32,784 nt of DNA from Nitrospira sp. Lineage in GTDB: Bacteria; Nitrospirota; Nitrospiria; Nitrospirales; Nitrospiraceae. The translations under genes were made by a program, and so were the position numbers. This document shows positions 10,808-20,312 of this stretch, in pieces (within the stretch, counting starts at the first letter, position 1; each line of letters opens with the position of its first letter). The DNA is taken from assembly GCA_021323395.1 (NCBI GenBank), contig JAJONL010000057.1, forward strand, positions 1 through 32,784. The letters run 5' to 3'. Below the pieces are notes generated by a model, which worked only from the letters and a program-made list of their open reading frames with translations, did not search any database and was not told the DNA's origin.

Positions 10808-12097
10808 CTAACTTTCGCCTAGTAACCACCGCACAACTGCTTGGCGAACACGAATTGAGGGGAGACACTTCACGGCTAGCCAACGAAGGGTCATAAAACA
10901 GGCGAAGACCCCTCGTAGTCTTCGCTGTAACTGGAACCACGGCAATGGCTGGGTAATCACTTCCGCCTCATCCAGGCAAAGCGCTATACCAAGCTTCCAA
11001 CGTTCCCACCAAGAATCTTTGAGAGTGAAGTAGAGCGCATCCGCGCAGTCCTCATCGATCCCTTGGCCAGGATGCTTGAGCAACTGTTTCGGCATGCGGT
11101 GCACCAGGGACGATAGATCCGCATCAAGGTCTATGGCATGCAGCACGCCGCGCGGCAGAGCTGTGTCGAACAAGTTTTTGGCCATGGCCAAACCCAGCAG
11201 CACCATTCGTTGACAGCCCCATTCGTCAGCCTGAAACAAAACCCGGCTCCAATCCAACGCCGGCCGCCGACGCACCAATTCGGCCACGTCGCAGATCCAT
11301 TTCAACTGCTCCCACGCCTGTTTTGATCCATGCACACAGAGTAAGATCAAAAGATCTTCGGAACAGAGGCCCATTGCACTTTTCCCCGGCAAATGAACCG
11401 GCTTCAGCCTATCCCAAAATCCGCCTCGGTCCAGCCGGAAAGCGAAGTGCTGCCGAGCCATGACCCACTGAAGATCTATCGCAATAATCCCGTTTTTCTT
11501 CTGAAAGAAATGAAAGGACTCACCAGGTGCGTTTACGGCCCTCATATCCCGACTACTGAGCTGGTACCCTCGCGACCAGAGCACCTGCCTGGCCTGAGGA
11601 ATGGACTCCCGATCGACGATCAGATCCAAATCCGAGCATTCACGTAGGCTGAGGTCCCCATAGGCGCTCTGGGCAAGCGTGACGCCTTTGAAGGGAATGG
11701 CGCGAACGCCTTTTGCGGCCAACGCATCGAGTACCGCCACCAGTTCTTTAGCAAGTACAGTGTTGACTAGGGCATTTACTTGGATATGCCGACGAAACGC
11801 CTGGTGGATGGCAGCAGGCACTGCCGCGGGACAAATAGCAGACAATGTGCGATACGCCAAGGGCGCCACTCCGTGAGCTTTCGACAGTCGCCACACCAAT
11901 TCCCAATTAATGGCCTCACTGGCCAAATCCTCAACTTCCACCCGAACGAACTCATTGATAGTGGTTCGCGCGCAGAGCACGAGCAATCGGCCCTCCGCAT
12001 GCATCTGGGATACTTCAGAAGGCGCCACGGGGGAGGGCCGACCTCGCGGATGGGCCCGTTTCCATCGCGCAGTCATGGAGTTCTGGTTTTGTCTCAT
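10808..12097 (-). CDS. PF14907-type nucleotidyltransferase-fold protein of lasso-peptide clusters
   Basis: A 429-residue protein with the motif FKGVTLAQ.AYGDLSLRECSDLDLIVD (about 136-162), whose D-x-D pair is the metal site of the minimal nucleotidyltransferase fold. This uncharacterised family recurs in lasso-peptide and related RiPP loci, often next to an HPr-kinase-like gene. I chose the ATG at 12097 because it overlaps the kinase stop by 4 nt (ATGA); upstream in-frame starts would run into the kinase gene. No internal break is visible, unlike its neighbours. What it modifies is unknown. It is the last gene of the decayed lasso locus; 185 nt separate it from the next operon. Confidence 0.82.
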   Translation of the reverse strand: MRQNQNSMTARWKRAHPRGRPSPVAPSEVSQMHAEGRLLVLCARTTINEFVRVEVEDLASEAINWELVWRLSKAHGVAPLAYRTLSAICPAAVPAAIHQAFRRHIQVNALVNTVLAKELVAVLDALAAKGVRAIPFKGVTLAQSAYGDLSLRECSDLDLIVDRESIPQARQVLWSRGYQLSSRDMRAVNAPGESFHFFQKKNGIIAIDLQWVMARQHFAFRLDRGGFWDRLKPVHLPGKSAMGLCSEDLLILLCVHGSKQAWEQLKWICDVAELVRRRPALDWSRVLFQADEWGCQRMVLLGLAMAKNLFDTALPRGVLHAIDLDADLSSLVHRMPKQLLKHPGQGIDEDCADALYFTLKDSWWERWKLGIALCLDEAEVITQPLPWFQLQRRLRGVFACFMTLRWLAVKCLPSIRVRQAVVRWLLGES

Positions 12098-12813
12098 CTC
12101 AATGCTCGCGCCGCACTTGTCTCTCCCAAGAGAGGTGTCACTAACCAAGGCAACTCCATAATATCGCGGCCAAAATGAAGCCGATGGCACGCTGTCTGCT
12201 CGACTAATTGCACAAGCGTTTGGACCTCCCGACGCGCAACCTTCGCGTCGTACACCAGCAACGAATGAGGAAGGATCAGTTCCAATGCCTTCCGTTTCGA
12301 AAGGGACTCCACGCAGCTATGCGAAGAATTGATAACCTTGGGAAAGAGAATCACGGCTGCTTCGCAGGAAGCTTTTAATGGACCAGGGTATATATCCTCT
12401 GCATAGAAATAGCGTTTAGGGACACCGGCGTATAGAACGGATGCCGACGTATCGCGCAGTTCGGGGAAAAATGACACGGTGTTATCCGTAACGTTAATTT
12501 TGAGTAGATATGGCAGAAGTTCCACGCGCTCATTCTCTAAGAGAAAGAACGGATGGTCGTCTGAGAGATAGCGGTATCCAGAACGGAGAAGAGACAAACA
12601 TGCTGTAGTTTTCCCACGTCCACTGCACCCAGGGATTAAAATGCCCCGCCCATTTTTTTCTAGTGCCGTGGCATGAAAGGTGTAGAGACCGCGCCGTTTC
12701 AAAAGTTCCGTCATGCCGAAGTGCACAAAGCTGACCCTGGTATCTGGAGCCATCGATTCCGGCCGCACCAGATACCCGTGAACCGACAGCGAGACTCCAT
12801 CGACTACCACCAT
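12094..12813 (-). CDS. HPr-kinase-like protein, C-terminal fragment with P-loop (frameshifted gene)
   Basis: A 239-residue reading frame with the Walker A GCSGRGKTT (62-70) and the following SDDHPF segment characteristic of HPr kinase/phosphorylase relatives. In paeninodin-type lasso clusters such a kinase phosphorylates the C-terminal Ser of the precursor. The ATG at 12813 lies inside an overlap with the upstream frame. Reading this frame further upstream gives IDPDFHEEG before the Met, which continues the protein more naturally than the Arg/Trp tail of the upstream frame. The two pieces therefore look like one gene broken by a one-base loss. Translational restart at the overlapping ATG could still yield a P-loop fragment. 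Confidence 0.78.
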   Translation of the reverse strand: MVVVDGVSLSVHGYLVRPESMAPDTRVSFVHFGMTELLKRRGLYTFHATALEKNGRGILIPGCSGRGKTTACLSLLRSGYRYLSDDHPFFLLENERVELLPYLLKINVTDNTVSFFPELRDTSASVLYAGVPKRYFYAEDIYPGPLKASCEAAVILFPKVINSSHSCVESLSKRKALELILPHSLLVYDAKVARREVQTLVQLVEQTACHRLHFGRDIMELPWLVTPLLGETSAARALR

Positions 12814-13136
12814 GCCTTCCTCGTGAAAATCCGGATCAATAATCCGTGATCAGAATAGATGTCGCAGAGCCAGGTCGTCTGTCGTTCGAGGCCGGTCACA
12901 AGGCCTGTACCGGCATATAATCGTTTAGCAAAAGTGGAAATGCTTACGGGCATGCTCTCCCGCCGTTCGACAGCATCGAACTGCAGAAGCATAGGAGAGT
13001 CTCCAATGGCTTTGTACTCAAAGTAATGGAGGAACGTCGCAACGGACGTCCTCAGTGCCATGGAATCAGTGACAAATTTGAACTCCATCCCGTGCACTGA
13101 GAATAGAAGTTCGTTCCTTGTCGACGTCATCGACAT
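12804..13136 (-). CDS. HPr-kinase-like protein, N-terminal fragment (frameshifted gene)
   Basis: 110 residues in a different frame from the P-loop fragment. The start at 13136 follows AAAGGAA with good spacing; a GTG-type extension upstream to 13208 has no ribosome site. The body (FLHYFEYKAIGD, then LCDIYSDHGLLI) looks like the N-terminal accessory region found before the P-loop in HPr-kinase-like lasso proteins of about 300-360 residues. The last residues RIFTRKAWW are likely frameshift sequence. The break maps to about 12825-12845, where the upstream frame (GLLI) passes into the downstream frame (DPDFHEEG) by a shift equal to one lost base. Confidence 0.65.
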   Translation of the reverse strand: MSMTSTRNELLFSVHGMEFKFVTDSMALRTSVATFLHYFEYKAIGDSPMLLQFDAVERRESMPVSISTFAKRLYAGTGLVTGLERQTTWLCDIYSDHGLLIRIFTRKAWW

Positions 13137-13249
13137 TGATTCCTTTCCTTTTTCCCATATCCCCCCTCTAGTGATTCTCACAGTCCTCAGTGAGGCTGGT
13201 CGACACACAGACCAGCCACCTCCTCCGCTCTCACAGAAGATCTGTCGTG

Positions 13250-13362
13250 TTAGGACGAGGGGTGGTTTATCACTCGGGAAAGCTGGATGGCCGTCACGTC
13301 GCGCAACACTCGTGCCTCACAAGTTCCGGCTTCACATAGACCTCTTTCTTCTGTTGATTCAT
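13250..13362 (-). pseudogene. lasso-peptide precursor, frameshifted
   Basis: A short gene with the strongest ribosome site of the region (AAAGGAGGTGAG, 5 nt before the ATG at 13362). The peptide begins MNQQKKEVYVKPELVRHE, containing the YxxPxL leader motif recognised by the lasso RRE protein (Y-V-K-P-E-L). In the present frame it ends after ECCAT (stop at 13294-13296, 22 residues). One base restored after the GAG codon (about 13308) gives LRDVTA, with the penultimate leader Thr, then a short tail ending in Ser-Ser at a TAA (13250-13252). The C-terminal Ser fits the adjacent HPr-kinase-like gene. No Asp/Glu macrolactam acceptor is visible in the restored tail, so the core may also be damaged. 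Confidence 0.6.
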
Positions 13363-13367
13363 CTTGT

Positions 13368-13379
13368 CTCACCTCCTTT
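13368..13379 (-). promoter_or_regulatory. strong ribosome binding site of the precursor peptide
   Basis: AAAGGAGGTGAG pairs almost perfectly with the 3' end of 16S rRNA and sits 5 nt upstream of an ATG that opens only a 22-codon frame. Such a site in front of so short a frame supports a former, highly translated peptide gene. Confidence 0.7.
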
Positions 13380-13518
13380 CAGTATGAACAGATGGCCGAT
13401 ACGACAGAGTCGAGCGAGTGATGTCCCGTGGACAGATCCCACATGACAGACCCTCCAGCATCGCGCTGTGGACGTCTTCGCTTTGTTTGATGCATAGGTG
13501 CGATATGGCGACCGTCGG

Positions 13519-13839
13519 GTCTGCCCACTCATGCGCTATATCCGGCATAAGCAACTCTTTAAATGACAATGAAGAGAGTCCGATCAGCGTCGCGAGAAAG
13601 AAACTCAGTAATCCCTTACGTTCAATGCTCCGAGCAGAGGCAACCATACTTGCGTGGTCCCGCGTTCTTCCATCCCCAGTGAGTTTGGAGATCTCCCCTT
13701 TTGGGGGAGTCGACTGAGCGACGGATCGCAACGATGATGAGCGGCCCGGCTACCGGATGGATGGAAACAGGAGGACAGGTCCCGATGGATAATTTCTGGA
13801 TCCAACGTATGAAAGTGAACAAACCAGGCGGGACTTTTA
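13519..13839 (-). pseudogene. relic of lasso cyclase (asparagine-synthetase-like, LarC/McjC type), N-terminal part only
   Basis: The minus strand directly after the B2 relic reads SPAWFVHFHTLDPEIIHRDL, matching the N-terminus of class-II amidotransferase/asparagine-synthetase-like cyclases (compare SGIAGIVHFDGR.xDPxxxxRM). A second frame then gives a TPP/RSIERKGLLS segment and LSFKELLMPDIAHEWAD, which lines up with the family's SDxELILxAYxxWG, about 93 codons in, the expected distance. The start codon is gone (ATA where ATG is expected), at least one frameshift lies between the parts, and the synthetase domain (around 400 residues) is missing. A colinear fragment ending MWDLSTGHHSLDSVV (13379-13444) could be the next part of this gene or a scrap of a PqqD-like B1 gene. 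Confidence 0.5.
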
Positions 13840-14295
13840 TGAAGAGAAAGGAAGAATCATGAGGAATTTGTTATTGGTTACTACTCGGACTGGACTCGGA
13901 GGAAAGCTGATTGTCACCTTGAACTTGCGCCAATGCGCGGAATCCTCCAAATAATCCCGCTCGTTCGCATCAAGCAAGCAGGGCCCACCAAACTCCCTGA
14001 AGCTTCATCACACCGCACCGGAACTGCACAGGAATGCCGACATGACGTGCAAACCAATAAAGGGTCAATGCGCGAGGAAAACTATTGCCCTGAGGGTTAT
14101 ACGGGGCCAGCGCTAGCCAGCGATCCACATAATAGGCCACATCTTCCATAACCGTTTGGTCCTGGCCCTCTGCCGCGTCTTCCGCGGTCAACCAACTCAA
14201 CAATGGGATGAGATTCACCAGCCGAAGTGCAACTTGAATCGCTACGATCACAAGGCCGGTGCCGGCAATCAAGCGACATTTCTTACGACTGACAT
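13837..14295 (-). pseudogene. relic of lasso-peptide B2 protease (transglutaminase-like)
   Basis: The frame from about 14290 to 13980 reads SRKKCRLIAG, one hydrophobic segment, then NPQGNSFPRALTLYWFARHVGIPVQFRCGVMK, the core of the PF13471 transglutaminase-like fold of lasso B2 leader peptidases. The position of the catalytic Cys (usually N-C-[LF]-P-R) is Ser (AGT). After MKLQG the frame breaks; the next frame continues EFGGPCLLDANERDYLED...FKVTISFP to a TAA at 13837-13839, matching the usual GHxWL..xxxxYLE...F..TYSFP ending, but with Pro in place of the catalytic His. The ATG at 14295 is out of frame with the body. Lesions at both catalytic residues and two frame breaks make this a pseudogene. 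Confidence 0.65.
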
Positions 14296-19600: not shown

Positions 19601-19637
19601 AGCCGCCTGACCAACCCTCCCTATCCGCACACCCGCT

Positions 19638-20312
19638 TCAGCACCTCCTGATACGCCTCTTCGATCTTACCCATGTCCTTGCGGAATCGATCCTTGTCCA
19701 TCGACTCTTTTGTGGCCTGGTCCAAATCTCATCGGCCAGGATAAGCCGGTTGTGAAAGACGCCGAACTCTAGCTTAAAATCCACCAGCAGCATGTGGCGT
19801 TCTTTGAAGAACGGCTGCAGGACCATGTTGATTCTTTGCGCCAAGCCCCGCATCTCTCGCAACACGGCCGGAGTCGCCACGTTCAAAAGTCGCAAATGAT
19901 CGTCGTTGACCAGGGGATCTCCCAACGCATCGTCCTTGTAATAGAACTCAATGATCGCGGGCTCGATGGCCACCCCTTCTTTCAATCCCAACCGTTTTGC
20001 GAGACTCCCCGCCACAATGTTCCGCACCACCACCTCGACCGGGACGATCGTCACTTTCTTCGTGAGCATCTCACGGTCGCTGACTCGCTCGATGAAGTGA
20101 GTCGGAATCCCCTGCTGCTCCAACAATCGAAACAGCCGCTCCGACACCCTGTTGTTGACCACTCCTTTGTCGACGATGGTGCCGCGCTTTTGCGCATTAA
20201 ACGCCGTTGCGTCGTCCTTGAAGTATTGCAGCACCTGATCCGGTCGATCGGTCGTGAAAATTTTCTTGGCCTTGCCCTCATACACCATGGTGCCCGTAGG
20301 TTCGCCCGCCAT
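19638..20312 (-). CDS. purC: SAICAR synthetase PurC, 3' end disrupted by a deletion/frameshift
   Basis: PurC joins aspartate to CAIR with ATP. From the ATG at 20312 (GGAGGAGAGG just upstream) it reads [11 protein letters not shown], then [16 protein letters not shown] and [10 protein letters not shown], all typical. After LADEI the expected SPDTCRxWD segment is missing and the frame changes, giving WTRPQKSRW... to a stop at 19638. The correct ending (QATKES...[22 protein letters not shown]) is present in the next frame and stops at 19621-19623. The gap corresponds to a net loss of about 22 nt. The missing SPDTxRxW motif belongs to the active site, so the protein as written should be inactive. 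True mutation or sequence/assembly error is undecided. Confidence 0.88.

Follow-up and report, generated by a model that had tools for sequence, protein, structure and literature searches.

Among the described systems, the linear polyphosphorylated peptides (LPP) of Bacillota are encoded with an RRE, an HprK-like kinase, an NTP transferase, an MsbA-like exporter and an SpI-like peptidase, and without a cyclase (Popov et al. 2026, PMC13381572). Their phosphates are carried on core Ser3, their leaders present the motif YxxPxVLxHQxIxFETxxS, and they have been reported as restricted to Bacillota (PMC13381572). In the Bsf system, the kinase BsfK (motif residues H148-G163-G166-G168-K169-D186-D187) is assisted by the RRE in adding a phosphate to Ser3 of a lasso precursor and is strictly specific for residue 3; BsfB2 cuts the leader (PMC10368454).

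The window considered here is a 32,784-nucleotide stretch of contig JAJONL010000057.1 from a Nitrospira sp. assembly (GCA_021323395.1). Nitrospira are key nitrifiers, and a search of the literature for a RiPP of the cyclase-free phospho-type in Nitrospira found none described. From homology, synteny, selection on the peptide and decay, the window probably contains the remnant of a five-gene RiPP cluster (B2, PqqD-like RRE, precursor, HprK-like kinase and NTP_transf_5) that is widespread in the genus and decayed here, and whose intact peptide would be cut, phosphorylated and linear. The features are collected in Table 1.

Table 1. Features of the decayed cluster, in window coordinates.
Feature	Position	Strand	Evidence
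Ribosome-binding site AAAGGAGGTGAG	13368..13379	-	sequence; intact homologues preceded by the same site
22-codon ORF, MNQQKKEVYVKPELVRHECCAT then stop; leader half (N-terminal) of the broken precursor gene	13294..13362	-	profile E 4.7e-7, residues 1-18
Precursor remainder in another frame, LRDVTAIQLSRVINHPSS then stop	13250..13309	-	profile E 4.8e-6, residues 20-35
PqqD-like recognition protein remnant (RRE/B1), two fragments in differing frames	13385..13578	-	tblastn with the N. defluvii protein
B2-type peptidase remnant (PF13471); frame break near 13976-13953	13870..14284	-	tblastn, relatives compared
HprK-like kinase gene, N-terminal fragment	12804..13208	-	tblastn
HprK-like kinase gene, C-terminal fragment; HATAL, GxxGxGKT and SDD retained	12094..12813	-	tblastn, motifs
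NTP_transf_5 protein, intact	10808..12097	-	PF14907 E 2e-65

The initial annotation had described a short precursor-like gene with a strong ribosome site and a YxxPxL leader broken by the loss of one base, and each of these features was recovered. The 22-codon ORF is present on the minus strand, which had been left unstated, with its ATG at 13362-13360 and CTGAAAGGAGGTGAGACAAG immediately upstream. The ribosome site is kept by the homologues, and the YxxPxL motif is found in the precursor and in the aligned homologues alike. After MNQQKKEVYVKPELVRHE, the frame closes with an out-of-frame CCAT and a stop, and the rest of the homologues' sequence (LRDVTAIQLSRV...) is found in a different frame. 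A profile of 24 intact homologues matched both halves separately, the two abutting at 13309 in different frames, and thus the ORF is more than a chance occurrence. Relative to the intact homologues, the precursor has a one-base deletion, and the proposed penultimate Thr is at the expected position -2. By this comparison, the 22-codon ORF is a frameshifted remnant of a precursor-peptide gene that is intact in most related Nitrospira.

An intact homologue of approximately 37 residues was found in 20 of the 29 Nitrospira-genus genomes, including that of Candidatus Nitrospira defluvii (FP929003.1), at one or two copies per genome. The aligned peptides have the consensus MEQQKKxEYVKPxLVKHELLRDVTAIQLSRV followed by approximately six variable residues; Y9, P12, L14, H17, E18, R21, D22 and T24 are invariant among the aligned intact precursors, and core residue 4 is Ser in all 23 congeneric peptides. 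The conserved block reaches through LSR, and the last 6-7 residues alone vary. Codon comparisons put pN/pS at 0.09 over residues 9-25 and 0.11 over IQLSR, compared to 0.75 in the tail. The leader and LSR are under strong purifying selection and the tail is nearly free, a pattern which indicates that the peptide is a selected gene product with selection extending through the LSR serine. No Pfam model matched the intact precursors tested, nor does any NCBIfam model fit the intact precursor or the forms present in the sister genera.

The gene order in intact genomes is purL, purF, B2 peptidase, PqqD-like protein, precursor(s), HprK-like kinase, NTP_transf_5, redoxin, metallo-beta-lactamase fold protein and TPR protein. 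This order is conserved across the intact congeners, with the precursor situated between purF and the redoxin gene. The B2 cysteine peptidase (PF13471) scores over the NCBIfam lasso B2 cut-off and has kept GNCFPRA and GHAW in 17 of 17 intact relatives. In the PDB, the PqqD-like protein (PF05402) has matches to TbiB1, a lasso RRE, and to a further PqqD chain of lasso type. The kinase scores under the family cut-offs, including that of Pfam; its model (pLDDT = 81) leads to the HprK/PEPCK fold by way of PEPCK structures, and sequence comparison of its P-loop stretch gives a match to HPr kinase. The spacing of its invariant residues H169, G184, G187, G189, K190, D207 and D208 is exactly that published for BsfK (PMC10368454). 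For the NTP_transf_5 protein, the predicted structure (pLDDT = 52) was of too low a quality to be used. No transporter was found within the cluster in the Nitrospira-genus loci, and no peptidase gene other than B2 was seen in the loci read, B2 filling the leader peptidase role in the mapped clusters.

In the window, tblastn with N. defluvii proteins located frame breaks in four of the five cluster genes (B2, PqqD, precursor and kinase), the sites concerned being 12828, 13309, 13444-13453 and 13953-13976. The purL, purF, NTP_transf_5, redoxin, metallo-beta-lactamase and TPR genes are open, as are approximately 12 others. The PqqD remnant has 40% identity to N. defluvii compared to 54-64% in distant intact congeners. 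In the B2 remnant, the active-site Cys of GNCFPRA, which is Cys in 17 of 17 relatives, has become Ser, and the GHAW segment with its His is missing. The kinase is present as two overlapping ORFs; given that the C-terminal ORF keeps the catalytic motifs, the kinase may have some residual expression. Within purC (19627-20312), approximately 22 nt appear to be missing near 19722, with a conserved segment gone and the frame shifted; the gap may reflect misassembly or be a genuine lesion in this gene of purine biosynthesis. Assembly quality was judged from the window only. From these comparisons, the cluster is decayed in this genome, with the purC deletion leaving some room for assembly error.

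If the frame breaks were sequencing or assembly errors, the cluster would be functional in this organism. An assembly of 234 contigs and a deletion through a conserved segment of purC, odd for a housekeeping biosynthetic gene, both lend themselves to such an explanation. However, there are four breaks in approximately 690 cluster residues compared to one in approximately 7,800 flanking residues, for which our own binomial estimate of chance is approximately 2e-4. Moreover, the change of the catalytic Cys to Ser is a substitution, the remnants of both B2 and PqqD lie further from their N. defluvii counterparts than do the proteins of any distant congener compared, and the same locus has decayed in two other species, all of which make errors quite improbable as the cause. 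That the short ORF encodes a functional 22-residue peptide, or that programmed frameshifting reads through it, has a negligible probability. While the ORF has a strong ribosome site and an intact start, 24 of 24 aligned relatives stay in a single frame across LRDVT or LRDIT, the partner genes are also broken, and no slippery heptamer was seen at the junction. Neither of the outcomes that would have counted against the initial annotation was seen: the 22-residue stop is kept in none of the relatives, and leader-like homologues are numerous. Both a conserved stop and programmed frameshifting were rejected.

Decay of the cluster is not confined to the window. Two other species, G020 and G001, lost the cluster independently: in G020, the B2, PqqD and kinase genes carry breaks of their own and a deletion has fused the leader to kinase sequence, and G001 has cluster fragments only. 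Neither a precursor nor a kinase was found at the locus in G002, G009, G017, G024 and G026. The NTP_transf_5 gene is open in 8 of 8 congeners checked without an intact cluster (loci L130-L137), and its dN/dS is approximately 0.2 when G020, a recent case of decay, is compared to G003, an intact neighbor. Since the gene persists where the precursor and kinase have been lost, it does not necessarily act in the peptide pathway, and this retention suggests a role beyond it. In some congeners (L140, L142 and L144), a PqqD-like gene and NTP_transf_5 are located between purF and redoxin with no recognizable precursor or kinase.

The family presents several lasso traits, namely a discrete RRE (B1), the YxxPxL motif, a B2 with Cys and His (residues lost in the window) and Thr(-2). 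The initial annotation had gone further in viewing the gene as a lasso precursor with a tail ending in Ser-Ser, and had proposed that intact relatives be examined for a Gly start and an Asp or Glu at core positions 7-9. This assignment did not hold: Gly1 is absent from all 23 intact congeneric cores, no more than 9 of them have Asp or Glu at 7-9, and a terminal Ser, seen in 5 of 23, is not conserved. When 16 congeners were searched, none had a lasso cyclase scoring above the NCBIfam threshold (the best reached approximately 301 bits versus 525), and no Asn-synthetase-type gene stands beside the cluster. Membership among the lasso precursors was rejected on the Gly1 and acidic residue counts and the cyclase search in these congeners. 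A true lasso precursor would need a cyclase encoded elsewhere to join residue 1 to Asp or Glu after the B2 cut. The YxxPxL leader with T(-2) and the B1 and B2 homologues would agree with this, and other Nitrospiraceae genera do have genuine lasso-type clusters with a cyclase and the same kinase and NTP transferase families; but those leaders have a different end, EYGxxAKLT, and with the core counts and cyclase search also against it, a lasso precursor is very improbable. Alternatively, the intact cluster may not serve a secreted product, the kinase and RRE acting instead on an intracellular regulatory phosphopeptide whose variable tail is irrelevant. Conservation through LSR ahead of a variable end, a cluster with no exporter in the Nitrospira genus, and the low copy number of the precursor are consistent with this role. 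However, the sister-genus clusters have an MsbA-like ABC transporter and several precursors whose cores differ greatly, features typical of exported RiPPs, and an intracellular role is considered unlikely.

With LPP gene logic, a similar leader motif and a lasso-type B2 found together, the intact family is proposed to be a cyclase-free, B2-cut phospho-RiPP that is neither lasso nor LPP as defined. The motif Y(-17)xxPxL(-12) is the probable binding site of the RRE in the intact relatives. B2 would cut after T(-2)-A(-1), and the kinase would phosphorylate the conserved Ser just past this predicted cleavage point, which is Ser4 in the Nitrospira genus and Ser3 in the sister genera. The predicted product is a short linear phosphopeptide with no lasso ring, which the NTP_transf_5 protein may further modify. 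By analogy, the strict residue-3 specificity of BsfK would argue against this proposal where the conserved Ser is at position 4, as it is in the genus.

Across the phylum, 296 genomes were searched and 40 carried the leader, almost all of these being Nitrospiraceae. Precursors of the sister genera have a constant leader as far as [VI]T[AG], while their cores are widely divergent. Of 50 precursors from these genera, 49 have Tyr at -17, as does BsfA; at core residue 3, 37 of the 50 have Ser and 11 have Tyr. The sister-genus clusters may be considered in terms of two modules. One is composed of PqqD, the precursor(s), the kinase, an NTP transferase, B2 and an MsbA-like ABC transporter; the other has two ATP-grasp ligases, PqqD, the precursor, the kinase, fatty-acid-hydroxylase-like proteins and an NTP transferase. 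Loci with the ATP-grasp module (L110, L111, L113, L114 and L034) have cores such as QKYKEKTSDK, in which position 3 is often Tyr. A GNGGxDxVPGxS-like motif, matched by no NCBIfam model, is common to several sister-genus cores (L120, L121, L122, L125 and L128). The kinase tree gave no resolution on whether the Nitrospira genus derives from the ATP-grasp module. In an Actinomycetes MAG and BMS3Abin01 (L086 5980-6123, L087 5971-6099 and L088 157-288), a related leader, YAKPELVKHENLKDVT, is followed by ECANWQCSVVVP-type cores, and in L086 an HprK-like gene is close to this leader.

Taken across the family, we lean with modest confidence toward the Nitrospiraceae having a widespread, uncharacterized class of cyclase-free, B2-cut phospho-RiPPs that may link lasso and LPP chemistry outside Bacillota, to which the sister genera would add paired ATP-grasp ligases, fatty-acid-hydroxylase-like enzymes and a Ser/Tyr switch at the phospho-acceptor. 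The intact family bears on how LPP and lasso systems diverged, and the finished genome of Candidatus Nitrospira defluvii offers a ready substrate-enzyme set for asking if a lasso-type RRE and B2 can work cyclase-free. The repeated decay with NTP_transf_5 kept also provides a handle on the function of this uncharacterized enzyme.

Compared to LPP, the family has in common the RRE, the HprK-like kinase, the NTP transferase and the lack of a macrolactam cyclase, with an MsbA-like transporter in the sister genera but not in the Nitrospira genus. The LPP motif YxxPxVLxHQxIxFETxxS resembles the Nitrospira YxxPx[LV]VxHExLRD[VI]T at many positions, with E in place of Q, and a Ser soon after the leader is conserved in both; relative to Thr, however, this Ser is shifted one or two residues later in Nitrospira. 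The leader peptidase is also different, being a B2-type cysteine protease in Nitrospira and an SpI-like signal peptidase in LPP, and the present family is found in Nitrospirota. With the Bsf phosphorylated lasso peptides of Bradymonas (PMC10368454), the likeness extends to B1, B2, the kinase with equal motif spacing, the NTP transferase, and Tyr(-17), Pro(-14) and Leu(-12) of the leader, and Ser3 phosphorylation would fit the sister-genus cores. In contrast, the Bsf system includes a lasso cyclase, and its precursor carries Gly1, Asp8 and an Ile at -2, whereas the Nitrospira family has Thr at -2 and neither a cyclase nor conserved ring residues. Paeninodin-type lasso peptides (PMC9266682) likewise involve B1 and B2 enzymes and an HprK-like kinase that modifies the precursor; there, however, a cyclase is present, the leader usually has WxxP, and the phosphorylated residue is a C-terminal Ser, which occurs in only 5 of 23 Nitrospira cores.
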